Below are positions 15,254-56,716 of a DNA stretch of 64,000 nt, in pieces; positions within the stretch are counted from its first letter, which is position 1, and every line of letters starts with the position of its first letter. The DNA lies in assembly GCF_002896875.1 (NCBI RefSeq), contig NZ_CP023278.1, positions 868,001-932,000 of the forward strand, given 5' to 3'. The stretch is from Nostoc sp. CENA543 (GTDB lineage: Bacteria > Cyanobacteriota > Cyanobacteriia > Cyanobacteriales > Nostocaceae). Both the position numbers and the translations under genes were made by a program. Below the pieces are notes generated by a model. That model saw nothing but the letters and a program-made list of their open reading frames with translations, was not told the origin of the DNA and searched no databases.

Positions 15254-16291
15254 TTACGAAATTTTAGTGGACTCAATAATGCTAACCTCGGATTCCGTTG
15301 GGATAATTTGTGTAATTTTCAACCCTGCGGCTTTAAATAGCTTGTGAAATTCTTCTTCAGTACGGATGCGTCCGCCTGGACACATGACTAACATATTTAC
15401 GTCTATGAACTTGCTGCCGTAAAATTCGTTGCCTGGAGGAATGACAAAGTCGATTACCAATAATCTGCTTTGTGGTGTCATAGCTTGATGACAGCCTTGG
15501 AGAATGGTGAGCGATCGCTCGTCATCCCAGTCTTGGATAATATGCTTGAGGATATACGCATCTGCGCCTGTAGGAATATCCTCAAAGAAGCTGCCACCGA
15601 TAAATTTGCAGCGATTTTGCAAGGCTAAATCCCAGGAATTTTTAGCCCGTTCAACTACATCTGGACGGTCAAATAGTATCCCTGTCATACTGGGGTAGGC
15701 TTGGAGAATTGTCGCTAGGGAAAGACCTTTACCACCACCAATATCAGCTAACTTATCAATAGAGGAAAAATCATAAGCTTCTAATATTAAAGTATTTTCC
15801 TCTTCAGACTCTGCCATTGCGCGATCGAAAATTTCACCTTGGGTAGAATCTTGGTCATTATACTCAAACAAGTCCATGCCATATAAACGCTCAAAGGCAC
15901 TGTCTCCAGTCTGCAAACTGTACATCAAATCGCCCCAGGATTTGTAATAATGCTCCTCACCCCGTAAAATTGCCATAGCTCGCACTGATTCAGGGTGATT
16001 AGTTTGCAAATTATCTGCTAATGGAGTTAAGGCAAAATAACGTGGTTTAATCTCTGCAAAAATGCCCACACTAGCTAAGGCTCGTAAGATGCGATATAAG
16101 GCATCACTATGGGTGTCAGTCGCTTTTGCCAACGTGTCGCAGTGTTGAGGACTTTCACTAAGTAAATCTGCAATGCCAAGTTTAGCCACTACGTAAACAC
16201 ACCGCGACATCCAGTAGGCGTGTATCCATTCCATTGCTGTCATTTGAAATGGTGTATTGCTGGGTGCATAGATAGATTCTGATACAGTCAT
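15254..16291 (-). CDS. O-methyltransferase-fold protein with substituted catalytic His
   Basis: The 345-residue protein has the plant/bacterial small-molecule O-methyltransferase architecture (Methyltransf_2): an N-terminal dimerisation helix region (TAMEWIHAYWMSRCVYVVAKLGIADLL) and a SAM-binding fold with LADIGGGKGLSLATIL. In family members the general-base His lies in an H-DWDD motif. Here the DNA reads LKHIIQDWDD, so the base is replaced by Gln253. Methylation of a phenolic oxygen may therefore be impaired or use another route; the RdmB branch of this fold acts as a hydroxylase instead. It is the last cluster gene, 14 bases after the SDR gene, behind a good AGAGG ribosome-binding site. A role in tailoring the cluster product is inferred. 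Confidence 0.82.
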   Translation of the reverse strand: MTVSESIYAPSNTPFQMTAMEWIHAYWMSRCVYVVAKLGIADLLSESPQHCDTLAKATDTHSDALYRILRALASVGIFAEIKPRYFALTPLADNLQTNHPESVRAMAILRGEEHYYKSWGDLMYSLQTGDSAFERLYGMDLFEYNDQDSTQGEIFDRAMAESEEENTLILEAYDFSSIDKLADIGGGKGLSLATILQAYPSMTGILFDRPDVVERAKNSWDLALQNRCKFIGGSFFEDIPTGADAYILKHIIQDWDDERSLTILQGCHQAMTPQSRLLVIDFVIPPGNEFYGSKFIDVNMLVMCPGGRIRTEEEFHKLFKAAGLKITQIIPTESEVSIIESTKIS

Positions 16292-16305
16292 GATTAACCT
16301 CTTTA

Positions 16306-17178
16306 CTAATTTTTTAATTCCAATTCTTGGAGTTGAATAGCATCACAAACCCTGTCTGGGAGAATCTTCGCTAAAAGCATGAGAAAATCTAGCATTAATT
16401 TTTCGTTAGATACGAAATAGCGAGTTTTCGGTTTCTTGACTTCTAAGGCTTTTTGAATCACATTTGCGACTTCTGCCGGTGGTACTCCCATACGGTTTGA
16501 TTTGATTAACTGCTCCAAGGAAAACTTGTAAATATCACCGTACATAGCTCTAGCTGTCGGTGACATATTAGCTAATTTTTTTTGTAAACTTGCTTCTACT
16601 TTATCTGGAGCGTTGGAAGCAATTGAGCCTGGTTCAATTAAAATTACTTCAATTCCCCAAGGATGTAATTCCATTCTTAAAGAATCATTTAAGGCTTCTA
16701 AGGCAAACTTAGAAGCACACAAAGCTGAAAAAAATGGTGATGATATTTTGCCAGAAACTGAGCCAATATTAATAATCCTGCCTTTGGCTTGGCGAATCAT
16801 TGGTAAAAAGGCTTGGGTAACAGCTACTTGTCCAATGACATTAACTTCAAATTGCCATCTGAGTTCATCGATGTCTAAATATTCTAATGGCCCATCTACT
16901 AATATACCGGCATTATTTACTAATCCAACTAATCCTTTATCACTAATAGCTGATGCCACAATTTCTGCGGCAGCTTTAATCTGTTCTTTTTTGGTGACAT
17001 CAAGAATTACTGGGATTAAATTACCAGATGAATTTAACTTGAGCAATTCAGCATCTTTTGTTTGACGAACTCCGGCAAATACTTGATAGCCTTGTTTATC
17101 TAATAATAGCGCAGTTGCTCGTCCAACTCCTGTAGATGCTCCTGTGATTACTACAGCACCTTTACGTTTTTGATTCAT
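16306..17178 (-). CDS. Short-chain dehydrogenase/reductase-fold protein lacking the catalytic Tyr
   Basis: The 290-residue classical SDR fold shows the nucleotide motif ITGASTGVGRATAL, the NNAG motif (GLVNNAGILVDGPLEY) and the Ser of INIGSVSGK. The active-site motif YxxxK should read PYCASK in this subfamily. The sequence is SALCASKFALEAL, so the catalytic Tyr is Leu153 while Lys157 is kept. The codon is clearly TTG. Oxidoreductase activity would be expected to be weak or absent, unless another residue supplies the proton. The extended C-terminus resembles retinol-dehydrogenase-like SDRs. It lies between the MATE exporter and the O-methyltransferase genes and is probably co-transcribed with the latter. 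Its role in the cluster is unknown. Confidence 0.85.
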   Translation of the reverse strand: MNQKRKGAVVITGASTGVGRATALLLDKQGYQVFAGVRQTKDAELLKLNSSGNLIPVILDVTKKEQIKAAAEIVASAISDKGLVGLVNNAGILVDGPLEYLDIDELRWQFEVNVIGQVAVTQAFLPMIRQAKGRIINIGSVSGKISSPFFSALCASKFALEALNDSLRMELHPWGIEVILIEPGSIASNAPDKVEASLQKKLANMSPTARAMYGDIYKFSLEQLIKSNRMGVPPAEVANVIQKALEVKKPKTRYFVSNEKLMLDFLMLLAKILPDRVCDAIQLQELELKN

Positions 17179-17242
17179 CGATTTTTCTAGTTATTCTCTG
17201 CGGGTTTGAAAGTCTATTTATCAAGTAAGTAGTAAATAGTAT

Positions 17243-17304: not shown

Positions 17305-18666
17305 CTACAATTTCTGAATGCTAAGTTTTTTAAATTCTAATCCAGTGATTAATAAAGCAATTGATACTACTAATGAATCTGTTAATAACATTCCATAATA
17401 TACACCTCTAACGCCAAAATATGAAGACAATATCAATACAAATGGAATCAGGAAGAAAAGAGTTTTAGAGAGAATCAAGAAACCTGCTGCTTTGCCATTA
17501 CCAATGGATTGAAATAACGTGACACTGCAAAATCCTAATGGTAAAATCAGCAGGAGAAAGTTGACAATTTGAAAGTTAAATAAATCATCACCACTAAAAT
17601 TAATAGTTGGCAATAAAATTCTCAGAAAGGTTGCTGGGAATAATTGTAAAGGCAACCAAATTAATCCTAAGCACAGTGTTGCACCAATACTAAATGTGAA
17701 AAATGCTTGTTTGAGGCGGTGATAATTTTTGGCTCCGTAATTTATGCCAATTATAGGCTGTAAGGCTTGCACAAATCCTTCGACGGGGATAAATGCTAAC
17801 GCATATATTCTCAGGGTTGCTCCGGCAATAGCAATATCGTGTTCACTGCCATATTGAGCAATAGATTTATAAATTACAGACTGTTCTACTAAGCTAATAA
17901 TCTCCATTAATAGGGCGGTTAACCCTACGGATAAAATTGCTGGTAGTAAATCTATGGCTAAAGTTAAATTTTTGGGATTAACCAGAATAGAACTTTTCTT
18001 AGAAAGGAAATAGCTAATATTTAAAATACTATAAACTATCATAGAAATAACTGTAGAAAATGCTACTCCTCCAATTCCTAAATTAAAAACACTAATAAAT
18101 ATAGGATTGAGAATAGCGTCGAGGATAGCAAATATTCCGGCAAAAATCATAGCAAGGCGGATTTTGCCTTCTGATTTAATTAATTGGCTGGACGCAACTG
18201 CTAAAATATAAAATACTGAACCTGATGTGTAGATTCTAAAATACTCTGCCCCGGCTGCGGCTACTTCACCACTCCCTCCCATAAAGGCAATTAATTTATC
18301 ACTAAAAAAGTAGCCTAAAAGGGTGATAAAAAAAGCAATAATTACGCTCAGAATGACTAAAGTGCCAAAAATTCTTGACTTGGTTCTGGTATCTTCTGAA
18401 CCGATCGCCCGACTGAGAACTGAGGCTGTACCTACTCCTACTAAATGAGCGCAACCAATAACTAAGGAAGTAAGTGGTACTGCTAAGGATATGGCAGCTA
18501 ATGCTGTTTCACCAATTAGTTGTCCAGCAAATAGGGCATCTAAGAAGCTATTAAAGCCAAGTAATAGCATTCCTAAAATGCCGGGAATAGTGAATTTTAT
18601 CATCAATGTAATTAGATTACCATTGAGTATTTCATGAGTAACTGGTGATTGTGTTTCTGTTGTCAT
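17305..18666 (-). CDS. MATE-family efflux transporter
   Basis: The 453-residue multidrug and toxin extrusion protein is an inner-membrane antiporter with about twelve predicted hydrophobic helices in two MatE halves. Visible family features are the N-terminal FTIPGILGMLLLGFNSFLDA, the GVGTASVLSRAIG loop, and in the second half FIPVEGFVQALQPIIGINYGA. I start it at the ATG at 18666 (MTTETQSPVTHEIL). The frame stays open upstream only to a TTG. It is the only transporter in the cluster, so it is the best candidate for moving the finished product or an intermediate across the inner membrane. An export role is inferred from position. The substrate ion (Na+ or H+) is not evident. Confidence 0.88.
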   Translation of the reverse strand: MTTETQSPVTHEILNGNLITLMIKFTIPGILGMLLLGFNSFLDALFAGQLIGETALAAISLAVPLTSLVIGCAHLVGVGTASVLSRAIGSEDTRTKSRIFGTLVILSVIIAFFITLLGYFFSDKLIAFMGGSGEVAAAGAEYFRIYTSGSVFYILAVASSQLIKSEGKIRLAMIFAGIFAILDAILNPIFISVFNLGIGGVAFSTVISMIVYSILNISYFLSKKSSILVNPKNLTLAIDLLPAILSVGLTALLMEIISLVEQSVIYKSIAQYGSEHDIAIAGATLRIYALAFIPVEGFVQALQPIIGINYGAKNYHRLKQAFFTFSIGATLCLGLIWLPLQLFPATFLRILLPTINFSGDDLFNFQIVNFLLLILPLGFCSVTLFQSIGNGKAAGFLILSKTLFFLIPFVLILSSYFGVRGVYYGMLLTDSLVVSIALLITGLEFKKLSIQKL

Positions 18667-18794
18667 AATTTGCCGCTCATGCTTCAAGCAATATGCAATA
18701 TGGGGGTTTGTGATTACAAATAATCAGGTATTTGTAATTTGGATAAGTAGCACAGGATAAATAATTAAAGGCTTGTAGTGTGAAATTTAGTTCA

Positions 18795-18911: not shown

Positions 18912-20285
18912 CTAAAAATGCACAGCCTCTTGTGGGGATTGTTGATGTTGCTGAATGTTGCATAATACCATCTTTAATTTACTGGCTGGGGGATAGTTTG
19001 CACCTTGGGGTTGTGGTTTTTCTCGTTGTGTATGGGTTAGAGATAATTGATAACGTGAAATAATTTTGGCGAGAACTAGTTTCATTTCAAACGTAGCTAA
19101 AGCTTCCCCAGGACAACGCCTAGCACCGCCACCAAAGGGCATAAATTCGTATGGAGAGTATTGTTTTTCTAGAAAACGTTCTGGTTGAAATTGCTGTGGT
19201 TGTGGATATAATTCTGGGTTTTGATGTGTTAAATAAATACAGCCGATGATGATTGCGCCTGGAGTTAAGTGATAGCCCATGAGATTAGTTGCTGATTCTA
19301 CTATCCTGGGAAATGTGACGAATTGAGTGGGATAAATCCGTAAGATTTCGTTACAGACAGCATTGAGATAAGGAAGTTCAACAATGCTCATGGGGTTGGG
19401 AGATTCACCCAGAGTGTTGATTTCTTGACGCAATTTTTCGCGGACTTGTGGCTCACGGTGAAGCCAATATAATGCCCAAGTAATGGCTGTTGCGGAAGCA
19501 TCTCGTCCACCGAATAATAATGAAGGAAATAAATCGCGTATTTCTTCATTTGTTAATAATTCGCCTGTTTCGTTGCGGGCAAATATTAACTCGGAAAGGA
19601 CATCATTAGCATTGGGGTTTGGTTGTTGACGACGATCGCTAATTTCTGCGTAAATCAGGTTGTCAAATTGTCGCCACAGATAACGAAAGTAACCCCAAGG
19701 ACTCCACCGCCCTAAGTCTTGTTGTAAAAAGGGGAAGGATAGAGGGATTTCGACAAAGGGCGATCGCGCATAGTTCATTAAATTAGTTAGCAGTTGCTTG
19801 AGTTGTTCGTAGCGATCGCCTGTATGTAAGCCAAATAAAGTATTTAAAATTACCTCTAGGGTAATTTTTTGCATGGTGGGGTAGGCTAAAAAAGATTTGC
19901 CCAGGGGTAGCTGATTCATGACTTTTTCGGTGACATCACAAATTTGCTGTCCGTAGGCTTTTACTTTATTACTGTGCAAAGGAGACATCAGCAGTTTGCG
20001 TCTGGATCTGTGGCGTATACCATCAAGCAGAAGTAGTCCGTTTTGTCCCACCAATGGGGCTGATTCGGCGTTTAACTCTCCAGCCGCGATGATTTCTGTT
20101 GTATTGGTGAAAATCTGCTTCATCCCTTGGGGATTACCGACAAAGATTAAGGGTGTGGATTCAGACATAATGGTGAAAATGTCACCATAGCGTTGATTCA
20201 TTTGATCGAGAAAACGCAGAGGATCGGCTGTAAATTGCATTCTCAGCCACCAAGCTGGGAGTTTTGGGCCTTGAGGTAGGTTCAT
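18912..20285 (-). CDS. Cytochrome P450 (CYP110-like), second of tandem pair
   Basis: The 457-residue soluble haem monooxygenase begins MNLPQGPKLPAWWLRMQF, the CYP110-type N-terminus found in cyanobacteria. The haem loop FGGGARRCPGEAL supplies the Cys ligand and the ExxR helix is present (NEILRIYP). The I-helix, usually AGHETT in CYP110, reads GGRDASATAITW, so the conserved Thr is Ala263, followed by Ser. That can change oxygen activation. I start it at 20285. An upstream in-frame start at 20372 would overlap the preceding P450 gene and would add residues encoded by repeat DNA (PRAPLRKPPRPSA). It is probably a late oxidative tailoring enzyme of the cluster product; the substrate is unknown. 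Confidence 0.9.
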   Translation of the reverse strand: MNLPQGPKLPAWWLRMQFTADPLRFLDQMNQRYGDIFTIMSESTPLIFVGNPQGMKQIFTNTTEIIAAGELNAESAPLVGQNGLLLLDGIRHRSRRKLLMSPLHSNKVKAYGQQICDVTEKVMNQLPLGKSFLAYPTMQKITLEVILNTLFGLHTGDRYEQLKQLLTNLMNYARSPFVEIPLSFPFLQQDLGRWSPWGYFRYLWRQFDNLIYAEISDRRQQPNPNANDVLSELIFARNETGELLTNEEIRDLFPSLLFGGRDASATAITWALYWLHREPQVREKLRQEINTLGESPNPMSIVELPYLNAVCNEILRIYPTQFVTFPRIVESATNLMGYHLTPGAIIIGCIYLTHQNPELYPQPQQFQPERFLEKQYSPYEFMPFGGGARRCPGEALATFEMKLVLAKIISRYQLSLTHTQREKPQPQGANYPPASKLKMVLCNIQQHQQSPQEAVHF

Positions 20286-20298
20286 ATTGGGTATATTT

Positions 20299-21672
20299 TT
20301 AAACGCAGAGGGGCGCGGAGGTTTCCGCAGAGGGGCGCGGGGTTTTGGCTGAGATGTGCATTTTGACACCACTAGCTGGGTAGCACATTAAACCTTCAAA
20401 TTTGGGTTGTTCTGGTTGTTTTTTGACTAGGGCGAGTTCATAGTTGGAGAGGATAGTGGCTAGGATGAGCTTCATTTCAAAGATGGCTAAGGCTGCACCA
20501 ATACAGCTACGAGTACCGCCACCAAAGGGGAAAAATTCGTAAGGGGTGTATTGTTTTTCTAGGAAACGTTCTGGTTGGAATTGTTGGGGATTTGGGTATA
20601 AATCTGGCTGTTGATGGGTGAGATAAATACAACCCATGATGAGGGTTCCTGGGGCTAATTCATAACCCATCAGTTCAATTGGGGATTCGACGCGGCGCGG
20701 AAATGTGAATAATTGCGCCGGATAAATACGTAGGACTTCGTTACAAACAGCACTGAGATAGGGCAGTTGGGCGATGCTCATGGGATCGGGTGAGTCGCCA
20801 AGGGTAGCTAGTTCTTGTTGCAGTTTTTCGCGGACTTGAGGTTGGCGATAAACCCAATACAATAACCAAGTGATAGCGACTGCGGAAGCATCTTGCGCGG
20901 CGAATAAGGGTGAGAGTAACAAATCGCGGACTTCTTCATCTGTCATCAGTTCACCCGTCTCATCACGGGCAAATATTAACTCGGATAGGATATCGCTGCG
21001 GGATGTGTCTGCTTGTTGGCGGCGTTCTTGCACTTCGGCGTAAAGCAGCTCAAAAATTTCTTGGCGGAGGTGCATAAGATATCCCCACGGACTCCACTTT
21101 CCTAAATCTTTTTGCAGAAAGGGTAGAAAAGAGGTAGTTTGCATGATGGGCGATCGCATACTCTTAAGTATGGTGGGAAGTAGGTACTTGAGTTTTGCAT
21201 AACGTTCTCCCTCTTGTAAGCCCAAAACAACTTTCATGCTGACTTGCAAGGTAATATCTTCAATTGTGGGATAGGCGGTGAAGGTTTTTTTGGCTAAATA
21301 TTCATCTATTACTTGCTTTGTCAGGTGGCAAATTAGCTTTCCTTGAGCCTGCATTTTGACACCATGAAAAGCTGGCATCATTAATTTACGTCGATGTTTG
21401 TGGCGTAGTCCATCGAGTTGTAATATACCTTGGTTGCCGGTGATTAATGCCGCTTCTGCGTTTAATTCACCGGGTGTTTTAATATCTTTTGTATTGGTAA
21501 AAATTTGTTTGATGGCTTGGGGTTCGCTCACAAATACTATGGGTGTTTCACCAAAGTTAATGATGAAAATGTTGCCATATTTTTTGGAGATAGCATCCAG
21601 GTGGTTTAGGGGGTTGTTGGCTATTTTAATAATGTTTAGCCAGAGAGGAAGGTTTACTTCGGGTATTTTCAT
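20299..21672 (-). CDS. Cytochrome P450 (CYP110-like), first of tandem pair
   Basis: The 457-residue P450 is clearly related to its downstream neighbour, sharing the order and spacing of motifs: haem loop FGGGTRSCIGAAL, NEVLRIYP helix and I-helix FAAQDASAVAITW. As in the neighbour, the usual I-helix Glu-Thr pair is Asp-Ala (Ala262). The pair probably arose by duplication. The ATG at 21672 is preferred over a GTG four codons upstream that lies in repeat DNA. The last 16 residues (AKTPRPSAETSAPLCV) are encoded by the dispersed CGCAGAGG-type repeat at 20303-20342, so the repeat has supplied a new C-terminus and stop. It sits immediately after the thioesterase-bearing NRPS gene, as expected for a tailoring enzyme. 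Confidence 0.9.
   Translation of the reverse strand: MKIPEVNLPLWLNIIKIANNPLNHLDAISKKYGNIFIINFGETPIVFVSEPQAIKQIFTNTKDIKTPGELNAEAALITGNQGILQLDGLRHKHRRKLMMPAFHGVKMQAQGKLICHLTKQVIDEYLAKKTFTAYPTIEDITLQVSMKVVLGLQEGERYAKLKYLLPTILKSMRSPIMQTTSFLPFLQKDLGKWSPWGYLMHLRQEIFELLYAEVQERRQQADTSRSDILSELIFARDETGELMTDEEVRDLLLSPLFAAQDASAVAITWLLYWVYRQPQVREKLQQELATLGDSPDPMSIAQLPYLSAVCNEVLRIYPAQLFTFPRRVESPIELMGYELAPGTLIMGCIYLTHQQPDLYPNPQQFQPERFLEKQYTPYEFFPFGGGTRSCIGAALAIFEMKLILATILSNYELALVKKQPEQPKFEGLMCYPASGVKMHISAKTPRPSAETSAPLCV
20303..20342. repeat. CGCAGAGG-type junction repeat inside P450 3' end
   Basis: Two tandem copies of CGCAGAGGGGCGCGG lie at the junction of the two P450 genes. Related sequence occurs at most other uncoupled gene borders of this cluster: about 21683-21724, 25819-25842, 25891-25912, 31821-31848, 37781-37800, 40000-40051, 50854-50931 and 52449-52469, and outside the cluster at 60315-60357. 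Here the repeat is translated as the C-terminus of the upstream P450. Confidence 0.75.
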
Positions 21673-21682
21673 GTTTAAGCTC

Positions 21683-21724
21683 ACGCAGAGACGCAGAGGC
21701 GCAGATGTGCAGAGGTACAGAGAG
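21683..21724. repeat. CGCAGAGG-type junction repeat
   Basis: CACGCAGAGACGCAGAGGCG and the degenerate units after it fill the short gap between the NRPS4 stop and the P450 start. It is the same repeat family as at the other cluster gene borders. Confidence 0.7.
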
Positions 21725-29316: not shown

Positions 29317-30090
29317 TTAGAATATACTTTTACGAAAAACGTATATTATTCTTGAATCTGCTAAACCAGATATTTCAGCATCCTGTGTAACATCATTGAC
29401 CAAAACTTTTGTAAAGCCCACTTTTTCTAGAACAGACTGCACCTCTGTCCGAGAATAAGCTTTAGCTGTACAATTTACATCCCTTCGTTGCCAGTTACCA
29501 TCGAGCAATTGAAATGTCACATAATGACTTTGCCATAACTTACTTTTTGGGTCGTAAATTGAACGTTGTAGCCACGTATAGTCATCGCCAAAATCACCAC
29601 TACATTCCTCAACTAAATTGTTATCTTCTCTCACTAATTCTCCTTCGCTCAAATCGAAGCCAAACCAGCCATTTGGCAATAGCGAATCATATACTTTTTG
29701 AAAAGCCTTTGTTAAGTCTTCAATACTCAACATATAGTTGAATACTGTACTCGATGAAACAACTGCATGAAAAGTAGGTGGCATTTCAAAAGAGCGTATA
29801 TCACTCTGAATAAATTCGCCACTGGGTGCATTCTTGCGAGCATAACGCAACATTTCGTCTGATAAATCAACCCCAGTTACTTGATAACCTTTAGCAATCA
29901 GTTTATTGACTAATTGACCCTGACCGCAACCAACATCTAAAATACGAGCATTTTCAGGCAAGTGTTCTAATATATGTTTTCCCAAAAATTCCAGCCAAAG
30001 TTCGCTGCTATTATCTTGTGGATATGCAAAAGCCCAGTTGTTGTAAAGATTTAGGGCATTATCTTCTATGATGGGACTTGCTAAATACAT
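29317..30090 (-). CDS. Class I SAM-dependent methyltransferase
   Basis: The 257-residue cytoplasmic methyltransferase has motif I ILDVGCGQGQLVNKLIAKGY (about 57-76), the acidic ribose-binding loop VTGVDLSDEMLRYARKN and a motif II/III region (FHAVVSSSTVFNYM). The length and motifs fit the Methyltransf_11/25 group that methylates N, O or C atoms of small molecules. The acceptor cannot be predicted. It lies 21 bases after the decarboxylase gene and before the PKS gene, so a role in precursor or product methylation is inferred. No catalytic residue is obviously missing. Confidence 0.85.
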   Translation of the reverse strand: MYLASPIIEDNALNLYNNWAFAYPQDNSSELWLEFLGKHILEHLPENARILDVGCGQGQLVNKLIAKGYQVTGVDLSDEMLRYARKNAPSGEFIQSDIRSFEMPPTFHAVVSSSTVFNYMLSIEDLTKAFQKVYDSLLPNGWFGFDLSEGELVREDNNLVEECSGDFGDDYTWLQRSIYDPKSKLWQSHYVTFQLLDGNWQRRDVNCTAKAYSRTEVQSVLEKVGFTKVLVNDVTQDAEISGLADSRIIYVFRKSIF

Positions 30091-49200: not shown

Positions 49201-50830
49201 GCTGTGCTTGCTGGGCAAACATTGTATGCAGCATTGCGTCGGGAGTGGGTGCGGTTGTGGCGTTGATGCGATCGCGTTGTGCTAATTGTGGAGGCGGAAT
49301 TAGTTGTCTATTAGTTTCTAACCAAGCTGATTCAGAATTAGCTAGTTGTTTGAGTAAACCAAAATAAGCCTCAAACATATCGCTAATTAAGCCTGTCGGG
49401 AATAGTTCTTCCACCACATCCCAGTTACAAGTCAAAGTTTCCTTTTCTTCCCAAACTTGAATATCCATCCAAGCTTGCGAAGCTTGACTGATACCGTAAA
49501 CCAACTCACCAAAATGGCTAAAAGTTAAGGTTTCTTGTCCTAGGGAACTAAAGCCGAGGGTGCTAGTAAAGACAATTGGCATAGCACTGGGTGCTGTACC
49601 TTGTCGGCGGGCTAGTTCTCGCGTGACGCGCACACCACTGATATAGCGATGTTCTAAATCTTGCAATAGTTGTTGTTGCAGACGGCGCGATCGCTCTCTA
49701 AATGCTTCAGGCTGAGAATTATCTACAGCTAATAAGGTGACAGAGGTAAAGTCCCCTAAAATATCGTTGACTTGGGGATGCAGGGGTAAGCGATTAAATA
49801 AGGCTAAATTTAAGGTAAATCGCGGGCTTTTACTCCAAAGAGTCAATATTTCCGCAAAAGCAGCTAGTAAAACTCCAGAAGGAGTTAACCCAGCATTTGC
49901 CGCACGTTGCTTTAACTGCTGCCATTCTGTCGGTTCTAATCGCCCTTCATAACGCTTGTTTTGGTGGTGTTTGATTTCCTTGGGACTTTTAGCCAGTGGT
50001 AAATCTGGGGCTGGCGGTAACTCATCGAGACGATTAAACCAATAGGCTTGCGATCGCTTATATAATTCTGTCTCTTGCAGTTTTTGTTCTGCTAAAACAT
50101 AATCGCGGAAGGAAATTTCTAAGGGTGGTAATGGCTCCTCTGGATGCTGGTAAAGTTGAAACCATTCATCAAATAGGCGAAACAGACTCCAAGCGTCAAA
50201 TATTTGCAAGTCAAAACTAACGTGTAACCGAAAACTTTCTTGAGCTAAACGTGTGACTCTAAACTCAAATAAAGGCCAGCGATCGCTCGGAATCACTTGA
50301 TGAGACATTCGCTGACGCACTGCATCTAGTTCTGCATTAGCAATGTCTTCTGTTTTGCCTCTCAAATCTAAAACTTCTAGCGTATAAAAGGGTACTTGCT
50401 TCAAAACCTGCTGCTTTCCGGTTGGCAAGACTATCGCCCTTAGCATATCGTGGCGTTCTATGACTTTTTGCAGCGCAAGATTCAGCTTTTCTATGTGTAG
50501 ATATTTACATTCAATCTCGTAATAACCATGATTGGCTACATTTCCCAACTCTAGTACGCCACTGCGTCCTACCCAAAAGGCATACTGCATATCAGTCAGA
50601 GGAAAAGGCTCATAACGCAACTCTGGTGCTGGGACAATTTTGGGTAGAGAGGTGGTACTTGTACCATTTTGTTGGAGTAATTTTAGTAGTTCCGCTTTAT
50701 GTTTCGCTAATGAATCGCGTAATTCTGGGGTAATGACTCCCTTTGGTGCATCAATATCTAGAGAGTTGCCATTAGCAGATAGTTTTACGCCTCGATGGGA
50801 TAGGTCGGTTAAAAGTGTATGTAAATTCAT
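46235..50830 (-). CDS. NRPS1: docking-Cy-A[embedded MT]-PCP (Cys-like)
   Basis: The 1531-residue synthetase has a TubC-type docking domain (1-55), a heterocyclisation domain (about 70-500) with D207LQIFD212AWS215 matching DxxxxDxxS, an A domain from about 530 with A8 at 938-948, a methyltransferase-like insert (about 1020-1370, SAM motif ILEIGAGTGAV at 1194-1204), the A10 lysine (TANGKVNRQAL) and a carrier (Ser1469). Pocket residues are D727, L728, Y731, N770, I798, G800, I824, I832 and W833, nearest to cysteine. A methyltransferase-like insert between A8 and A10 is also found in PchE and HMWP2, where it methylates or epimerises. The module should build a salicyl-thiazoline. It is the first NRPS in the assembly order. 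Confidence 0.93.
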   Translation of the reverse strand: MNLHTLLTDLSHRGVKLSANGNSLDIDAPKGVITPELRDSLAKHKAELLKLLQQNGTSTTSLPKIVPAPELRYEPFPLTDMQYAFWVGRSGVLELGNVANHGYYEIECKYLHIEKLNLALQKVIERHDMLRAIVLPTGKQQVLKQVPFYTLEVLDLRGKTEDIANAELDAVRQRMSHQVIPSDRWPLFEFRVTRLAQESFRLHVSFDLQIFDAWSLFRLFDEWFQLYQHPEEPLPPLEISFRDYVLAEQKLQETELYKRSQAYWFNRLDELPPAPDLPLAKSPKEIKHHQNKRYEGRLEPTEWQQLKQRAANAGLTPSGVLLAAFAEILTLWSKSPRFTLNLALFNRLPLHPQVNDILGDFTSVTLLAVDNSQPEAFRERSRRLQQQLLQDLEHRYISGVRVTRELARRQGTAPSAMPIVFTSTLGFSSLGQETLTFSHFGELVYGISQASQAWMDIQVWEEKETLTCNWDVVEELFPTGLISDMFEAYFGLLKQLANSESAWLETNRQLIPPPQLAQRDRINATTAPTPDAMLHTMFAQQAQQCKTAPAVISSQRTLTYQELYTLSNQLGHQLRRLGATPNQLIGVVMDKGWEQIVAVMGILASGAAYVPIDPNLPQQRRDYLLANSEVKIVLTQSWLDEKLDWPSGIQRLCIDTQELAKESKEPLQPVQTPDDLAYVIYTSGSTGLPKGVMISHRNVVNVVVHTNQRFNIGCQDRILALTALNHDLSVYDIFGLLCAGGAIVIPDACGVKDPAHWAELMVREKVTLWNSVPAMMQMLVEYAESQSVVIPASLRLLIMGGDWLPVSLPDSIQALVPEVQILSIGGPTETTIWNIGYLITEVDPNWKSIPYGTPMANAKYYVLNEALEDCPVWVAGQMYCAGVQVAQGYWRDAEKTAAKFITHPRTQERIYCTGDLGRYLPDGNIEFLGRADFQVKIRGYRIELGEIEAAIKQHPGVKDAIAITVPSVEQSHQQIIACIVPQQQAETLFELEMADSNETQQLWQNLVAKGAKIAQKNLDAVKPEVFAAFWQQHLDPLYTYAVSIAFHQFGVYTQLHEAYSLDELMQRGQVKPRYRKWLSRALSFLVDLEWLQVDGDKFVNTRLLPHSFPTELLAKILSEAAPILDYNQNTVELLVNSAKNLAAILTENIHSAQIIATDEIPALYRKEFQAGSLVIREILHHLAQSWQSTTNLRILEIGAGTGAVTREVLPVLPPEKTTYVYTDISQYFLQLGQQDFGHYPFLETALFNLEQSPQEQGYELHSFDVIIAGGVIHATRNIQESLENMRSLLAPNGLLLFVEPTKLHPFWELFMGLQQGFDRFEDTALRSHPLLSPKQWQEVLLAQGFTDCTVFNQPGSIADFLAVYTFMARGSASVQKFKKQEFKSFLQQKLPDYMIPSEFILLDALPLTANGKVNRQALPQLQNLRPQFKTNYVTPQTETEQIIAGIWQEVLRVEKVGINDNFFELGGDSLQATQVIARMREKFQVNLPVQNLLQAPTLSSLAKSIDEIQQTTQKLQAPINEALDNRVEVEL

Positions 50831-50952: not shown

Positions 50953-52446
50953 TTAAAGAGTTAATTTTTCTCTGTCTTCTGTATCAGTATCAATTAGTGA
51001 CGTAGATGTTAAAACTTTGGTTAAAGCTAACTGATTGAGCAACAGTTCAATTAAATGATTGAGGTTATTTTCACCAAAGAATTTCTCTATAGGAACTTGC
51101 ACTTTCAAGTCATTTTCGATTTGAGTTTTGAATAAGAAACCCATCAAAGAACCGAGCAATAAAGTTAAAGGTTGTTGTTGTTCAATTTGTGAAACAGGTA
51201 GTTGTAATGAATGACTCAACCATTCCAACAAATAAGTTTCCAGCATTTGCCGTTGTTGTTGTAGAGAAGCAGCTAACAGTTTTTCTCTAGAAATGCTGCT
51301 TTCTTGTTTTTCTGTGAGATGAATTTTTTCTGGTTCTTGAGTCAGGCTGAGAGGAGGCGTAGGAACACAACCAAGTGCCACATCACCCCAGCGCATGATA
51401 GTTGCGGCTGCTGTAGCTGATGCACCTTTCGTATAAACTAACACTAAGCTATTTTCGCTAATTTTACCCTCATGGGCAGCATGATATAAATTAGCGATCG
51501 CCATTACCGGGCCAATATTTGCATATCTTGGATACAAGTTGATAGTCTTTGCTGCACTAATACCTAATGCTTGTATACAAACATTGGTATACCAAGCAGT
51601 AGGAGTATTGAACGCAAAGAAATCTAGATCAGCCAAAGTTAACCCAGCCGCCACCGCCGCGCCTTCGCAGCAAGTACGCACAAAATCTACAGAGGTTTCG
51701 GCAAGTGTACTGACATTCTCGCCTGTACGAGTCCGAATCTGAGGCTGTCCTTGAGCATCTGTTACCAGTTCATGTACATAAGCACCACTGGTTGCAGCCG
51801 TATTCACGATTTTAGTCCCTAAGATTCCTTGATTTGCTTTGAGTCTATCTACTACAAAGGCTCCAGCACCATCACCCATCGACCATGAGAGGCTATCTGT
51901 TTCCTCTACTGTTTGAGAACCGATGTGAGAGACAACAACCAAAGCATTGCGATATGCTCCCGTTTGGATGAGTGCATGAGCGTTTTGCAAAGCTACCAAA
52001 GCACTAGAACAAGTTGACTCTAAATTCCAAGCCGGACAGTGCAACCCTAATTTCTGAGCCAAGTAAATAGCATTACCATGTCCCACCTGTTCAGGAAATA
52101 GAGAAGCCACAATCATCAAATCCACCTCCTGGGGAGAGAGTCGTGCAGCTTCTAGTGCATCTTTAGCCGCCCGATATTCCAGAGTCAGCGAAGATTCATC
52201 GATATCAACCACCCGACGTTCAACATTACCCCGAAAAGGATCTGCTAAATATGGCGCAACAGCTTGTGACCAAATATCCAGAACATTTGGTGTAGAAATT
52301 GATTCCCTAGAACCAGATAGCCTTACCCTTCTTGGCTTCTCTTGTGGAATTAACTCAGGAAACTTCCTCACCCAATACTCATTTGTCCGAATAACGCTCC
52401 CAAAACTAACAGCAAGTGAGCAAATACCAACTGAATCATTCATCAT
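50953..52446 (-). CDS. KASIII-like protein with C-terminal carrier-like domain
   Basis: The 497-residue protein has an N-terminal thiolase fold of the KASIII (FabH-like) group (about 1-355) and a C-terminal ACP-like segment (about 405-480). The acylated Cys is C146 in NLESTCSSALVAL and the oxyanion Asn is N310. The His of the usual PHQAN motif is absent: the position reads FAFNTPTAW (Asn280). The carrier segment has LLLGSLMGFLF, keeping the Ser but with Gly in place of the usual Asp. Such variants can act as acyltransferases instead of condensing enzymes. It sits between NRPS1 and the second AcpS. A role in transferring the salicyl starter from the free ACP, or in making another acyl group, is possible but not shown. 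Confidence 0.82.
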   Translation of the reverse strand: MMNDSVGICSLAVSFGSVIRTNEYWVRKFPELIPQEKPRRVRLSGSRESISTPNVLDIWSQAVAPYLADPFRGNVERRVVDIDESSLTLEYRAAKDALEAARLSPQEVDLMIVASLFPEQVGHGNAIYLAQKLGLHCPAWNLESTCSSALVALQNAHALIQTGAYRNALVVVSHIGSQTVEETDSLSWSMGDGAGAFVVDRLKANQGILGTKIVNTAATSGAYVHELVTDAQGQPQIRTRTGENVSTLAETSVDFVRTCCEGAAVAAGLTLADLDFFAFNTPTAWYTNVCIQALGISAAKTINLYPRYANIGPVMAIANLYHAAHEGKISENSLVLVYTKGASATAAATIMRWGDVALGCVPTPPLSLTQEPEKIHLTEKQESSISREKLLAASLQQQRQMLETYLLEWLSHSLQLPVSQIEQQQPLTLLLGSLMGFLFKTQIENDLKVQVPIEKFFGENNLNHLIELLLNQLALTKVLTSTSLIDTDTEDREKLTL

Positions 52447-52448
52447 AA

Positions 52449-52469: not shown

Positions 52470-52473
52470 TAAA

Positions 52474-52872
52474 TTACAAAAGAGCGATCGCACTCGCTGC
52501 GGCATAATCAGCTACATGAGTAATGCTCACCAACCACTTAGCAATCCCTAAACAGTTCGCCAATTCCCGATATTGACCATGCAATACTACTGATGGTTCA
52601 CCTGTGGGTAATCGCTGTACTTCTATATCCAGCCAAAAAGCCTGTCGATTTAATTCCATCCCCAAAGCTTTCAAAATAGCTTTTTTGGCACAAAAACGAC
52701 CCGCCAGATGTTGAATCCCAGACATAATACTTCGTTCACTGGCTCTAAAATACTGGATGGTAAAATCTCCCCGTGCTTGTTCTATGAGGGTTCTCATCTC
52801 AGCAGTCGCAACTATTTCTAGGCCATAACCGATGATATACGGTGTATCAGGTACAGCCAGTATCCCTTTCAT
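52474..52872 (-). CDS. Second AcpS-fold protein with both metal ligands changed
   Basis: The 132-residue protein has the fold of a holo-ACP synthase (4'-phosphopantetheinyl transferase, AcpS group). Two residues that bind magnesium in AcpS are altered. The Asp of the GxDI motif is Glu19 (YGLEIVAT), and the Glu of the KEA motif is Lys64 (RFCAKKAILKALG); the second change reverses the charge. The conserved Arg after the first motif is also Glu25. The other AcpS gene of this cluster (56020-56400) has normal residues at these sites. Overlap of 4 bases with the salicylate synthase stop shows coupled translation. It may be inactive, a carrier-binding chaperone, or an enzyme with another chemistry. 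Confidence 0.8.
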   Translation of the reverse strand: MKGILAVPDTPYIIGYGLEIVATAEMRTLIEQARGDFTIQYFRASERSIMSGIQHLAGRFCAKKAILKALGMELNRQAFWLDIEVQRLPTGEPSVVLHGQYRELANCLGIAKWLVSITHVADYAAASAIALL

Positions 52873-54203
52873 CTGGCTTCAGACTCCAACACTACATTCG
52901 TCAACATAGTATTCATCTTGTTGACAGACTCGATATACTCTTTTTCAGGTACAGATTCGGCAACAATACCAGCACCAGCATTTAAGTAAATATGATTACC
53001 ATACTGATAAACAGAACGAATTGCGATCGCTAAATCTCCTGTACCACTACTATTTACCCAGCCAATACCCCCAGCATAAATTCCTCTCGGTTCGTCTTCT
53101 AAACGGTCAATCCATTTGAGTGCTTGTTGTTTATCAATTCCCGAAACGGTAATCCCTGGAAACAAAACCTTCAAAGCATCCCACAGGGTTTTTCCTGGTT
53201 GTAGTTGTCCGCCGACTCTCGATGATAAATGCTGCACACAACGATATTTTTTCACTTCCATGAAGTTGAACACCTGAATACTACCTGCTAAACACAAAGA
53301 AGCAATTTCACTTTGCGCTAACCAAATAGAAAGAGCGTGTTCTTTGACTTCTTTGGCATCAATAAATAGTTCGTGTGTGAGTTGTGTGTCTTCTGTTTGA
53401 TTTTCGCTTCTCGGTCTGGTTCCAGCTAGGGGATTAGTCACAATGAAACCATCGTCATAAACTTCAATTAAAGTTTCTGGACTAAAGCCAACTGCGCGGA
53501 CATCTCCAATATTTAAACAGTAGGAACGCGCCGCATTATTAACTTTGGCTCCAACTATATAGGTTCCCAATACATCTAAATTACCAGGAATTTTGACGGA
53601 GCGAGAAATAATTGCTTTCTGTAATTCGTCCTTTTGGATGGCTGTAATTAACTCACTAATCTTTTGCTGATAATTTGTGCGATCGCTAAAATCTAACCTC
53701 AAATCAGCCGCTTGATAATCTGGCAATTGAGCATCTAAAAGTAAAATTTCTTCTACTTGTTCAATAGATTTTGTACTTCTGATGCAAACTCCTTCATCAG
53801 TGAATATCAGTTCAATTTCTGGAATGAGAAAATATAGGCTGTCTTGCTCGATTGATTTAGCATAATCTGAATAAAATCGAGCCATATCAAAAGCCACATA
53901 ACCATAAGCTGTCCAATCTTCAATCGCCAATTTTGCCAACATTTTCTCGACTTGCTTAAATGGCTCAGTTGCTGGCTCTGAGAAAGATTTACCTACACCT
54001 TTCACAGAAACTAAATCTTGCGAAACTGATACTTTTGCTAATTCATTACCAGCAATCCTGATTTCATTTTTGCCCTCATACAAAACATAATTCTCAAAAA
54101 TCCCAGCTTGTAGGAAATTTTGCAAAGCTACAAGATGATTCCTCCGACCAGAAATAAATTTACGCTTGTATTTGATTGCTGTCTGAAACTCTAATACCAT
54201 CAT
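52869..54203 (-). CDS. Salicylate synthase (Irp9/MbtI type)
   Basis: The enzyme converts chorismate through isochorismate to salicylate and pyruvate with magnesium, as in yersiniabactin and mycobactin synthesis. The 444-residue protein carries the chorismate-binding fold: the base Lys in LQKAIISRSV, GFSPETLIEV, NPLAGTRPR, KEVKEHALSI, VQHLSSRVGGQL and LFPGITVSGIDK. The last two resemble Irp9/MbtI more than EntC-type isochorismate synthases. I start it at ATG 54203 (MMVLEFQT), behind AACAGAGGCATA; a longer frame from 54266 has no ribosome-binding site. It provides the aromatic starter for the ligase encoded just upstream. An isochorismate-only product cannot be excluded, but no pyruvate lyase gene is present. 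Confidence 0.88.
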   Translation of the reverse strand: MMVLEFQTAIKYKRKFISGRRNHLVALQNFLQAGIFENYVLYEGKNEIRIAGNELAKVSVSQDLVSVKGVGKSFSEPATEPFKQVEKMLAKLAIEDWTAYGYVAFDMARFYSDYAKSIEQDSLYFLIPEIELIFTDEGVCIRSTKSIEQVEEILLLDAQLPDYQAADLRLDFSDRTNYQQKISELITAIQKDELQKAIISRSVKIPGNLDVLGTYIVGAKVNNAARSYCLNIGDVRAVGFSPETLIEVYDDGFIVTNPLAGTRPRSENQTEDTQLTHELFIDAKEVKEHALSIWLAQSEIASLCLAGSIQVFNFMEVKKYRCVQHLSSRVGGQLQPGKTLWDALKVLFPGITVSGIDKQQALKWIDRLEDEPRGIYAGGIGWVNSSGTGDLAIAIRSVYQYGNHIYLNAGAGIVAESVPEKEYIESVNKMNTMLTNVVLESEAR

Positions 54204-54282
54204 TATGCCTCTGTTGAGAAATGCAAGTAAGTAAGTCGGTGCGAAAAAACAAACTACATTAAACAATGTAAAAATACTAGGA

Positions 54283-54374: not shown

Positions 54375-54376
54375 AT

Positions 54377-55924
54377 TTACCTTGTGATACTTAAACTAGA
54401 ATTATTACTTAATAATCTGCGGTGAATTTTTCCGGTAGCAGTGCGTGGTAATTTTTCTACAAAGTAAACTTTTTTAGGAGCCTTAAAATTTGGCAGATTT
54501 TGTCTAGCAAACTTCCGAATATCCATTTCTATTTGTGGTGAAGCAGTTTGCCCCGACTTGAGACTGATATAAGCGACAATCTGCGTTAACTGTTCTTCAT
54601 TATTAGACTCAGGTACAACAGCAACCTCTAAAATTTGGGGATGTTGATGTAATATATCCTCAATTTCCATTGGTGAGATCCATTGGCCATTGACTTTAAA
54701 CAAGTCATCATTACGTCCCATAAAGTAAAAATAACCATCAGCATCTTGTAAATATTTATCTCCAGTCCGCATGGTGTCACCATAAATCGCTTTACGCGTT
54801 TGTTGTAACCGCTTCCAATAACCCCACATCAGGCTTTCTCCTCTGACTTGGAGATTGCCAATTTCACCAGGAGAACAAGGTACACCATCGTCATCCAGAA
54901 TTTGCACGTCATAACCAGGAATGGGACAACCAGAACTTCCTGGTTTGCACTTTCCTATTTGATTAGAGAGAAATATATGTAAAAACTCAGTCGTACCAAT
55001 GCCTTCGCAAATTTCATGGTTGTATTTTTCTCGCCATTGCTGCCAAATGCTTTTAGGCAATTGTTCCGCCGCCGATGCACACAGGCGTAAGGAAGAAACA
55101 TCCAATGGTGCAATTTCCGAGAGAGCCAAAATACCTGCATAAACACTCGGTATGCCAAACAAAATCGTCGGTCGATAACGGTGAATATCTGCAATTATGT
55201 CGAAGGCGTTACTGGCATCAGATAACACACTAGCTGCACCTACCGCCATTGGCATATATAAGGTATTACCCAAGCCATAGGCAAAAGGCATTTTCGCCAC
55301 TGAATAGGTAATATCATCCTCACGCAAACCTAGAATTGCTTTACCGTATCTTTCTGCACATACCACCATACTCTGATGCAGGTGAATCACGCCTTTAGGA
55401 CTGCCTGTACTACCGGATGTATAGAGCCAAAAAGCTGGTTCATCGGGTGAAGTTTCCGCACAAGGTAGTAATTCATCTTGTTGAGTTAGCAAAGAACTAT
55501 AAGCATCTTTCAAGAGTACATGACGTAAATATTTTGATTGGATAGGAGCTAGTTTTTCTTGCCACTCTTGGGTAGTTAATAAAAGTTGAGCGCGAGAATC
55601 TTGCAGAATATATTGAATCTCATTAAGACTACAAGTCGTATTAATGGGAACTGGTATGGCTCCCAGCCAAATTGCACCCCAAAAGCCAAAGACAAACTCT
55701 GGAGAATCGGGTAATAAAATGGCGATGCGGTTTTCTTGTTTTATCCCAAGATTAGCCAGTAATCTCGCACTCCGTCTGACGAAGCTGGTAACTTGTGCAT
55801 AGTTATATGTTTCATTTTGATAATAAAAAGCTATTTTCTCGCTGCTTCCCTTTGCCAAGTTTCTGTCTAGGAAGTAAGCTGCAACGTTAAATATATCTGG
55901 TAACTGTTCAGAAATCATAGTCAT
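54377..55924 (-). CDS. Benzoate-CoA-ligase-like acyl-AMP ligase
   Basis: The ANL-family enzyme would adenylate an aromatic acid and transfer it to a thiol, either CoA or the phosphopantetheine arm of the free ACP. The 515 residues show the P-loop-like FWLYTSGSTGSPKGVIH, KMPFAYGLGNTLYMPMAVGA, GIGTTEFLHIF, TGDKYLQDADGYFYFMGRND and the C-terminal lysine in LPRTATGKIHRR. The second motif is characteristic of benzoate-CoA ligases (BadA group), not of EntE/YbtE-type aryl-AMP ligases used by most salicylate siderophores. The start at 55924 follows GAGGAAAAGCTA. Salicylate is the likely substrate because the salicylate synthase gene comes next; benzoate or another hydroxybenzoate is possible. Confidence 0.88.
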   Translation of the reverse strand: MTMISEQLPDIFNVAAYFLDRNLAKGSSEKIAFYYQNETYNYAQVTSFVRRSARLLANLGIKQENRIAILLPDSPEFVFGFWGAIWLGAIPVPINTTCSLNEIQYILQDSRAQLLLTTQEWQEKLAPIQSKYLRHVLLKDAYSSLLTQQDELLPCAETSPDEPAFWLYTSGSTGSPKGVIHLHQSMVVCAERYGKAILGLREDDITYSVAKMPFAYGLGNTLYMPMAVGAASVLSDASNAFDIIADIHRYRPTILFGIPSVYAGILALSEIAPLDVSSLRLCASAAEQLPKSIWQQWREKYNHEICEGIGTTEFLHIFLSNQIGKCKPGSSGCPIPGYDVQILDDDGVPCSPGEIGNLQVRGESLMWGYWKRLQQTRKAIYGDTMRTGDKYLQDADGYFYFMGRNDDLFKVNGQWISPMEIEDILHQHPQILEVAVVPESNNEEQLTQIVAYISLKSGQTASPQIEMDIRKFARQNLPNFKAPKKVYFVEKLPRTATGKIHRRLLSNNSSLSITR

Positions 55925-56019
55925 TAGCTTTTCCTCTACTCCCTGACTTTCCCGCGCTCCTTTACAAAGCCCTTAGTGTACCTCCCTCTTGTGGGTGGCT
56001 TTATTTTCCCCGTTCCCTT

Positions 56020-56400
56020 TCATAAAGCAATGACTTGAACTAATATATGTTGATTCCAATTGCACCAATTTGCCGACCAATTTTGAATGTCACGTTTTTT
56101 TGCCTGATAACTTGCTTGATTGTATAGATGAATAATTAGACTCTGAGGTGTGATTTCAGCTTCAATGTCATTCCAATCAATGTCAACCAACCCAGTACCT
56201 AGAGCTTTACTCACAGCTTCTTTTGTGGCAAAGCAAATTGCATAATATTGATGAGAGTCCTTAGCTGATTGACAGCGTTCGATTTCCTTAGCAGTGAAGA
56301 TCAGATTTAAGGTTTCACCATCATATCGATCAACGATTCTGGCAATTCTGTGAATGGGTATGATATCTAAACCCAACCCTTTAATCTGTTGGTGTAACAT
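56020..56400 (-). CDS. acpS: Holo-ACP synthase (AcpS-type phosphopantetheinyl transferase)
   Basis: The enzyme transfers 4'-phosphopantetheine from CoA to a carrier-protein serine. The 126-residue protein has the canonical AcpS motifs: GLGLDIIPIHRI with metal ligand Asp12, and FATKEAVSKALGTG with the catalytic Glu. It overlaps the ACP gene by 20 bases, so its natural partner is probably that ACP. It may not prime the NRPS carriers, which usually need a Sfp-type enzyme encoded elsewhere. The C-terminus (QNWSANWCNWNQHILVQVIAL) is richer in Trp than usual. Comparison with the altered AcpS copy at 52474-52872 is informative. Confidence 0.85.
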   Translation of the reverse strand: MLHQQIKGLGLDIIPIHRIARIVDRYDGETLNLIFTAKEIERCQSAKDSHQYYAICFATKEAVSKALGTGLVDIDWNDIEAEITPQSLIIHLYNQASYQAKKRDIQNWSANWCNWNQHILVQVIAL

Positions 56401-56716
56401 GGTTGGGATGATTTTGGGCGATCGCTTCTTCGACTTGATTGCAGACTTGAGCTAATGTCATGTCTTGCCGAGACTCTAGCTTCACACTCACACCTAGTAT
56501 CCGTTTTAATCCCAAGGCTATCTCTACCGCCTCTACAGAATCAAGTTGTAAATCTCTTTGCAATAAGGTGTCTTCACTAATTGACTCTTCTGGAATACCG
56601 AGATTTAGAAGTATTGATTTTAAAGTATCCATGACATTGCAAGTATTCTGTTCGCCAGACGTAACTGGAGAAACACTAGAGGAATTTTCTTGTCGGCTGT
56701 CTATAGATTGACACAT
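56381..56716 (-). CDS. Free-standing acyl carrier protein (probable aryl carrier)
   Basis: The 111-residue protein has an ACP domain in residues about 29-105: the phosphopantetheine site is LDSVEAVEIALGLKRILG (Ser in DSV), preceded by a DTLLQRDLQ helix. A polar 28-residue N-terminal extension precedes it. An internal ATG (56632) would start directly at the ACP domain, but the ATG at 56716 follows AAGGTGTAAT and is the better start. It is the first gene of the minus-strand cluster, coupled to its AcpS and followed by the aryl ligase. A role as carrier of the salicyl starter, in place of the ArCP fused to NRPSs in pyochelin/yersiniabactin systems, is inferred. Confidence 0.87.
   Translation of the reverse strand: MCQSIDSRQENSSSVSPVTSGEQNTCNVMDTLKSILLNLGIPEESISEDTLLQRDLQLDSVEAVEIALGLKRILGVSVKLESRQDMTLAQVCNQVEEAIAQNHPNHVTPTD

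Follow-up and report, generated by a model that had tools for sequence, protein, structure and literature searches.

A probable salicylate-capped metallophore cluster in Nostoc sp. CENA543 with a predicted acyl-hydroxypyridone chain end

Leptochelins are cyanobacterial salicyl-thiazoline metallophores made by hybrid polyketide synthase (PKS) and nonribosomal peptide synthetase (NRPS) assembly lines. A 41-kb cluster of the same general kind is described here from Nostoc sp. CENA543 (genome size 7.2 Mb), at positions 15254-56716 of a 64,000-nucleotide stretch of contig NZ_CP023278.1, referred to below as the window. The cluster comprises 21 genes, all on the minus strand, and faces a divergent TonB-dependent siderophore receptor gene on the plus strand (Table 1). 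We propose, with a probability of about 0.6, that it directs synthesis of a salicylate-capped metallophore whose release by Dieckmann cyclization would yield a 3-acyl-4-hydroxy-2-pyridone as the second metal ligand, and not a linear acid ending in beta-alanine.

Several described systems share features with the window: (i) lusichelins are cyanobacterial salicyl-thiazoline hybrid PKS/NRPS metallophores with a salicylate synthase and a TonB receptor (PMC12210259), (ii) anachelin is a cyanobacterial NRPS/PKS product with a salicylate starter and a receptor in its proposed cluster (PMC6562677), and (iii) all2641-all2649 of Anabaena PCC 7120 is likewise a large cyanobacterial NRPS/PKS siderophore cluster (PMC4005646). 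The lus pathway has four Cys modules, and the main text of PMC12210259 contains neither "alanine" nor "diaminobutyr-". Anachelin, as described in PMC6562677, includes a Thr-Ser-Ser tripeptide, two PKSs and a tyrosine-derived catechol; no codes of the Thr-Ser-Ser type were read in the window, in agreement with an earlier note on this DNA that had found anachelin a poor fit. The same note had suggested kinship with all2641-all2649, which gained no support: by its description in PMC4005646 that locus has nine open reading frames (seven NRPS and two PKS) and is set apart from the window with its four modular NRPSs, free condensation domain and single KS-AT-ACP protein. The structure of the all2641-all2649 product was unknown as of a 2019 review (PMC6562677). 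Schizokinen, also considered a misfit earlier, and synechobactin belong to the NRPS-independent siderophores, which need an IucA/IucC synthetase; the whole host genome gave no match to this family at E <= 0.001. No published cluster of the whole order was found in the open-access literature searched, most subscription papers lying outside it, and within that literature the earlier statement that no described siderophore has such an order stands.

The head of the cluster compares with that of the fatuamide A cluster (fat) of Leptolyngbya sp., which, as described in PMC11877528, has in this order the acyl carrier protein (ACP) FatB, the phosphopantetheinyl transferase FatC, the benzoate-CoA-ligase-family protein FatD, the salicylate synthase FatE, the holo-ACP synthase-like FatF, the KASIII protein FatG and the Cy-A(Cys)-PCP protein FatH. 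The first seven cluster genes of the window match FatB-FatH in order and kind, and both loci have a TonB receptor nearby. Thus, the loading block is already known in kind; the role of the KASIII protein is not stated in the section of PMC11877528 on the cluster. According to the same description, the two systems differ in what follows: FatH lacks the embedded methyltransferase of the window Cys module, in fat there follow six PKS modules, each with a ketoreductase (KR) and two with C-methyltransferases, and Phe and Gly modules that are absent from the window, and fat ends in a condensation domain and the separate thioesterase FatA, whereas the window cluster ends in an in-line thioesterase (TE). 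Table 2 of PMC11877528 has no EctB, PanP or P450, all three of which are found in the window.

The same gene order is kept in six further cyanobacterial genomes with per-gene protein identities of 68-99%, and the cluster is thus not a chance assembly. The window and these six copies (Plectonema radiosum NIES-515, Nostoc sp. CHAB 5844, LEGE 12450, CMAA1605, and the genomes G038 and G067) are referred to as the seven full clusters; the CMAA1605 copy is split across two contigs, and the break removes most of the KASIII gene and the start of N1. A contig scan with the KASIII query returned 25 loci, 24 of them cyanobacterial judging by their titles. The distribution among searched genomes is patchy, with full-length KASIII at 84-100% identity in 3 of 99 (its own genome, G038 and G067) and a contig-end fragment in G029. 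The cluster is real and shared, and appears to be a hitherto undescribed metallophore cluster.

The pathway outlined below is predicted throughout in its chemical steps, whereas the gene content, conserved motifs and synteny behind it were observed directly. Salicylate synthase would provide salicylate, which the ligase would load as salicyl onto the free carrier protein. The KASIII protein, having lost the condensing His, would transfer it to its own carrier domain and then to N1, which would add Cys, cyclize and C-methylate to give 2-(2-hydroxyphenyl)-4-methylthiazoline. N2 would add a variable residue and epimerize it, the free condensation domain and N3 would add diaminobutyrate (Dab) and then beta-alanine, and the PKS would add one unreduced malonyl unit. 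After N4 has added a second beta-alanine, the Cys-thioesterase would free the chain by Dieckmann chemistry, with the beta-keto carbon attacking the beta-alanyl thioester, to yield a 3-acyl-4-hydroxy-5,6-dihydropyridin-2-one that a P450 may oxidize towards the 2-pyridone. Salicyl-thiazoline and acyl-hydroxypyridone would form the two metal-binding ends, and the cupin enzyme may supply a third donor.

The terminal module and its relatives

The TE domain of N4 carries the motif GGWCYGG, with Cys where most such TEs carry Ser, and structure comparison points to a thioesterase fold for the modelled domain. We compared 30 end stretches with 54% or more TE identity to the window (the seven full clusters, Iningainema, N. 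mirabile, three Desmonostoc and 18 relatives); such a TE is carried by 22 of 149 searched genomes, its own included. The Cys is present in all 30 stretches, TEs at 37-39% identity have Ser in 8 of 8 cases, and the Asp and His of the triad were found in each of the 22 domains checked. The terminal adenylation (A) domain code VDW[VIL]ISLAN occurs in 27 stretches, the remainder beginning with IDW (L116) or GDW (L115 and L127).

The PKS directly upstream of the TE module has no KR in 11 of the 30 stretches, and in the other 19 the NADPH motif of its KR is invariably broken; other KRs of the same regions have an intact motif in 11 of 13 cases, one of them the reference KR itself (Fisher's test, p = 6e-7, to be read with the kinship of the 19 terminal KRs, which share one branch). 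The group of the window has no KR left, and the loss, kept since it arose, is taken as sustained selection for a ketone at this position. The acyltransferase of the window PKS is, judging by its motif, presumably malonyl-type. In 27 of 30 stretches, no more than 6.5 kb separates a P450 gene from the TE start, the L115 stretch being too short to judge, and PanP was found in 19 of 30, where the stretches reach just ~13 kb upstream.

This combination resembles the end of the kirromycin pathway, in which KirD makes beta-alanine, KirB loads it, KirHI closes the ring and KirOI desaturates it (as described in PMC5818483). Kirromycin and the predicted window product share a beta-alanine last unit, a dedicated aspartate decarboxylase, a thioesterase-like cyclase family with a Cys-Asp-His triad and a P450, the ring unsaturation being that of kirromycin; the unreduced beta-keto unit that kirromycin-type closure requires before beta-alanine would come from the KR-less PKS. 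The two differ in that KirHI is a separate protein whereas the window TE is in line, in that the window decarboxylase is a pyridoxal-phosphate enzyme of the PanP family, and in the remainder of the molecule, which shows no relation. We therefore favor a pyridone end on the basis of the TE Cys, the absent or broken KR, the nearby P450 and the cluster's own aspartate decarboxylase. The Dieckmann cyclases TrdC, NcmC and KirHI have their Cys-Asp-His triad in an alpha/beta-hydrolase, as does the N4 TE. They are free-standing proteins, whereas the N4 TE is part of a C-A-PCP-TE protein; thus, it is not a member of this group, although by analogy it may work in the same way. NcmC was not among the 50 matches listed in the fold comparison of the TE, which excludes nothing.

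The tail recurs in other settings. In Iningainema, a KASIII-salicylate head and the same tail surround Gly- and beta-alanine-type modules, and on contig C18 of genome G078 they surround two Cys-type modules (DLYNLSLIW and DLYNMSLIW). Thus, the salicyl head and the Cys-TE tail are combined in at least three architectures. The same tail also occurs on one contig of N. mirabile, seen as two 20-kb stretches with a 20-kb gap between them, together with a Gly code, a free condensation domain, EctB and codes for Dab, Gly and Ser. In a single genome, that of Desmonostoc geniculatum (G006, L113-L115), the Cys-TE family is represented by three different terminal modules.

We consider it an even bet that these tails represent a wide, undescribed cyanobacterial chain-end family, in which an unreduced malonyl unit, beta-alanine, an in-line Cys-TE acting as Dieckmann cyclase and a P450 lead to acyl-hydroxypyridones. 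In the window this end would be joined to a salicyl-4-methylthiazoline loaded by a KASIII transacylase; the two chelating ends would differ in kind and be separated by an exchangeable D-residue. To our knowledge, salicyl-thiazoline with acyl-hydroxypyridone would be a new combination of chelators, and we take the head to match desazadesferrithiocin, a synthetic scaffold of iron chelators. The loading block is common to fatuamide, and what merits follow-up is the pyridone end proposed here, the family of Cys-TEs and the exchange of the D-residue; given the conserved Cys-TE and lost KRs, one structure or enzyme assay would bear on the chain end in 22 of the 149 genomes.

Metal role and alternative products

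The receptor scores 419.1 bits against the TIGR01783 cut-off of 223.5. A receptor adjoins the loading genes in six of the seven full clusters, lies ~6 kb off in CHAB 5844 and is found inside the Iningainema cluster. The genome has four matches to TIGR03494, of which the cluster's salicylate synthase alone exceeds the cut-off, and salicylate synthase serves as a metallophore marker (PMC12971057). A metallophore role is thus supported by the siderophore receptor, its position beside or near all seven clusters and the sole salicylate synthase above cut-off; the metal may be iron, copper or both, and the siderophore-type role assigned earlier is in keeping with this. Among the 21 cluster proteins, Pfam showed no ornithine/lysine N-monooxygenase, the enzyme expected for hydroxamate siderophores of the Orn/Lys type, and a probe of the rest of the genome gave three weak matches, the best at 31.1 bits.

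Several observations weigh against a metallophore with a Dieckmann-derived pyridone. The substrate assignments are our assumptions, as we take DLYNIGIIW to be closest to Cys codes, DIWEMVADD to be a Dab code, and VDWVVSLAD and VDW[VIL]ISLAN to be beta-alanine-type codes; the terminal codes of L115 and L127 differ from the last of these. Two of the 13 other KRs are also broken, and the tree places the 19 terminal KRs together on the same side of a branch of support 1.0, which implies one old inherited loss and not 19 events. No P450 was seen over more than 6 kb downstream in L118 and L127. In structure the TE comes nearest to AB3403, also a Cys enzyme, whose pathway leads to a linear amide; Dieckmann chemistry is therefore not a necessary consequence of a Cys-TE. 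As described in PMC10956176, the TE domains that act as Dieckmann cyclases in line have Ser, and those with Cys are discrete proteins with a Cys-Asp-His triad. The O-methyltransferase could block a chelating oxygen. As for regulation, a FurA matrix (28 sites from Table 1 of PMC4005646 and the published consensus, assessed on 300 first-order simulated regions) gave a best score of 11.82 at position 56957 between the receptor and ACP genes, a value reached by 28.7% of simulated regions, and this candidate box was discarded as evidence. No regulator was found among the 21 cluster proteins by Pfam. The matrix scored higher (13.06) at 60049, downstream of the receptor, and no Fur-type site clearly common to the six aligned receptor-ACP regions was seen.

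The same metallophore might instead be released as an amide by the Cys-TE, either by attack of the Dab side-chain amine on the beta-alanyl thioester to form a macrolactam or by attachment of a free amine. The relation to AB3403 and the free gamma-amine of Dab, three units upstream of the last beta-alanine, are in line with such a release. It is nevertheless unlikely: the same TE family occurs in Iningainema and on the G078 contig, whose available stretches yielded no Dab code, and amide release leaves unexplained that a working KR before the terminal beta-alanine was found in none of the 30 stretches. Hydrolysis to a linear acid, with a beta-keto amide of beta-alanine at its end and perhaps an O-methylated enol ether, would come near the product plan of the earlier note, and both the complete C-A-PCP-TE end module and the O-methyltransferase, present in all seven full clusters, would suit it. 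However, a hydrolytic TE would not need the Cys that is conserved throughout the family, and the nearby P450 would be left without a clear task, which makes this outcome distinctly unlikely.

It is very unlikely that the product is chiefly an antibiotic or signal carrying salicyl-thiazoline and pyridone, and not mainly a metallophore. The Fur box was not significant, and among 21 stretches with the pyridone cassette (L113-L133, 7.7 to 20 kb long) KASIII or salicylate synthase was found in none and a relative of the window receptor in one (L119). The L119 contig, however, carries salicylate genes further along, and both the receptor positions and the marker status of salicylate synthase point to metal acquisition. 

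For the favored reading, the salicylate-capped metallophore with a pyridone end, the order of units in the earlier plan is retained, and its linear beta-alanine end is probably to be replaced by a ring made by the Cys-thioesterase.

Salicylate loading and the upstream modules

The salicylate synthase reaches 326.9 bits (TIGR03494 cut-off 325.15), and its nearest solved relatives are MbtI and then Irp9. The aryl ligase reaches 498.2 bits (TIGR02262 cut-off 375.25) and is nearest to solved anthranilate- and benzoate-CoA ligases. The LDS serine motif of the free ACP is conserved across all 20 aligned sequences, that of the window among them, and the first AcpS protein keeps its Asp and KEA motif in 18 of 18. 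The Asp and the KEA Glu are not conserved in the alignment of the second AcpS protein, whose gene, despite the eroded catalytic residues, recurs in most salicylate loading blocks that were compared; it may act as a non-catalytic helper.

In the KASIII alignment, Cys146, Asn310 and the carrier Ser433 are present in all 19 proteins, and the position of the FabH catalytic His, as placed by alignment, is occupied by Asn in 18 and Ser in one. In the window and Plectonema, the carrier Ser is preceded by Gly in place of Asp. Iningainema tapete (L030) has the KASIII-carrier protein fused to the Cy domain within one open frame. We infer that the KASIII domain lacks condensing activity and shifts salicyl onto its own carrier, which would serve the Cy domain. 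Salicylate priming, as proposed earlier, finds support, and the proposed loading through a KASIII-ACP protein is new to that scheme. A second KASIII subfamily (47-59% identity, ~356 to 395 residues) matches without a carrier and is sometimes in tandem (e.g., G036, G044, G047 and G064; L028).

N1 is the first module in line, with a Cy domain (motif DLQIFDAW) and a Cys-type A domain; the tenth code position (Lys) was assumed, and a literature search for the code strings gave no match. The domain embedded in this A domain is closest to the CurJ C-methyltransferase (E 2e-41), and six of the seven full clusters, the window among them, agree in its SAM, His and Glu motifs, CHAB 5844 being divergent (45%, EVGAGYG). 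We infer 4-methylthiazoline as the N1 product. A role as a PchE-like epimerase was rejected: most solved relatives of the domain are C-methyltransferases of the PKS type, its 8 matches do not include PchE, and it has an intact SAM motif.

The A domain of N2 varies: the window shares the code DVYYLGGIC with CMAA1605 and Plectonema, whereas CHAB 5844 and G038 have DVENIGAVT, and LEGE 12450 and G067 have DVGELGSID, presumably an Orn-like code. Between the window and G038, identity is 96% in the dock and condensation domain, 27% in the code-bearing part of the A domain and 88% in the epimerization domain. This pattern implies that the A domain was exchanged within an otherwise preserved assembly line, a natural example of assembly-line re-editing. 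The small methyltransferase occurs in exactly the three full clusters with DVYYLGGIC, and four of the six relatives of the window lack it. The G078 contig has two relatives of it (63-64%) at the same place, and no DVYYLGGIC code was read there; tailoring of the tail is a likelier role than partnership with the DVYYLGGIC residue.

The first N3 code, DIWEMVADD, is identical in all seven full clusters, and EctB beside N3 (565.2 bits, TIGR02407 cut-off 552.2) fits its reading as Dab. The later codes are VDWVVSLAD (N3) and VDW[VIL]ISLAN (N4), and PanP (609.9 bits, TIGR03799 cut-off 606.1) fits the beta-alanine reading. PanP looks dedicated to the cluster, since a separate PanD stands elsewhere in the genome. 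A Dat/Ddc pair, in which EctB and a diaminobutyrate decarboxylase would give 1,3-diaminopropane, was rejected, as the decarboxylase scores 156.3 bits on the diaminobutyrate decarboxylase model, whose cut-off is 900, but passes that of PanP. The codes support the order salicyl, Cys, D-Xaa, Dab, beta-alanine, malonate and beta-alanine. Domains, codes and family cut-offs thereby agree with Cys heterocyclization, an epimerized residue and the supply of Dab by EctB and of beta-alanine by PanP, and domain order and codes with a malonyl unit between two beta-alanine-type modules, as the earlier note had proposed.

The N-terminus of N3 aligns solely to the C-terminal lobe of complete condensation domains and lacks HHxxxDG, which confirms the half domain noted earlier. 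The free condensation domain has SHMxxVDG in all seven full clusters; strict conservation was rejected, as the N. mirabile relative has SSNLIILDG, with the catalytic-type His replaced by Asn. The Cupin_8 enzyme, nearest to JMJD5 among solved proteins, keeps HxD and the distal His in all seven. The 3' end of the N3 gene (31811-31880) encodes the C-terminal tail RRKAHAKAQRRKGEE, which we take to resemble a dispersed cyanobacterial repeat.

Gene inventory and flanking regions

Pfam and NCBIfam assignments and the open reading frame positions (Table 1) confirmed the genes, coordinates, single strand and facing receptor listed earlier. The entries of that list were right, and KASIII-ACP, the second AcpS, the small methyltransferase, the short-chain dehydrogenase/reductase and the O-methyltransferase are additions to it.

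Table 1. Genes of the cluster and the divergent receptor, in window coordinates
Feature	Position	Strand	Family or motif
Free acyl carrier protein, proposed first salicylate acceptor (aryl carrier)	56381..56716	-	PF00550
AcpS-type phosphopantetheinyl transferase	56020..56400	-	PF01648; catalytic motifs kept
Benzoate-CoA-ligase-family ligase	54377..55924	-	TIGR02262 above cut-off
Salicylate synthase	52869..54266	-	TIGR03494 above cut-off
Second AcpS-like protein, eroded catalytic residues	52474..52872	-	TIGR00556
KASIII-like with C-terminal carrier domain; proposed salicyl transacylase/loading carrier	50953..52446	-	
N1: TubC_N dock-Cy-A(cMT)-PCP, code DLYNIGIIW	46235..50830	-	
N2: TubC_N dock-C-A-PCP-E, code DVYYLGGIC	41472..46238	-	
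Free condensation domain	40063..41475	-	PF00668
Cupin_8/JmjC Fe(II)/2-oxoglutarate-type hydroxylase	39089..39970	-	PF13621
EctB-type diaminobutyrate aminotransferase	37814..39067	-	TIGR02407 above cut-off
N3: half C-A(DIWEMVADD)-PCP-C-A(VDWVVSLAD)-PCP	31811..37744	-	
PanP aspartate 1-decarboxylase	30112..31767	-	TIGR03799 above cut-off
Small SAM methyltransferase	29317..30090	-	PF13649
PKS KS-AT-ACP, without ketoreductase	25916..29023	-	HAFH motif in AT
N4: C-A(VDWVISLAN)-PCP-TE, TE nucleophile Cys	21731..25804	-	
P450a, directly downstream of TE module; proposed ring desaturase/hydroxylase	20299..21684	-	PF00067
P450b	18912..20372	-	PF00067
MATE exporter	17305..18687	-	PF01554
Short-chain dehydrogenase/reductase	16306..17178	-	PF00106
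O-methyltransferase	15254..16291	-	PF00891 and PF08100
TonB-dependent siderophore receptor with AMIN domain, divergent	57356..59992	+	PF00593, PF07715, PF11741; TIGR01783

The low side of the cluster is flanked by a large hybrid sensor kinase at 10598-14995, and 2418-6672 looks similar to it by eye; neither shows signs of cluster membership. N4 of CMAA1605 (C36, L051-L052) matches as three overlapping pieces, suggesting frameshifts or errors of a draft assembly. In G067, N1 is split by ~1.1 kb that look by eye like an insertion element, and the window copy of N1 is intact.

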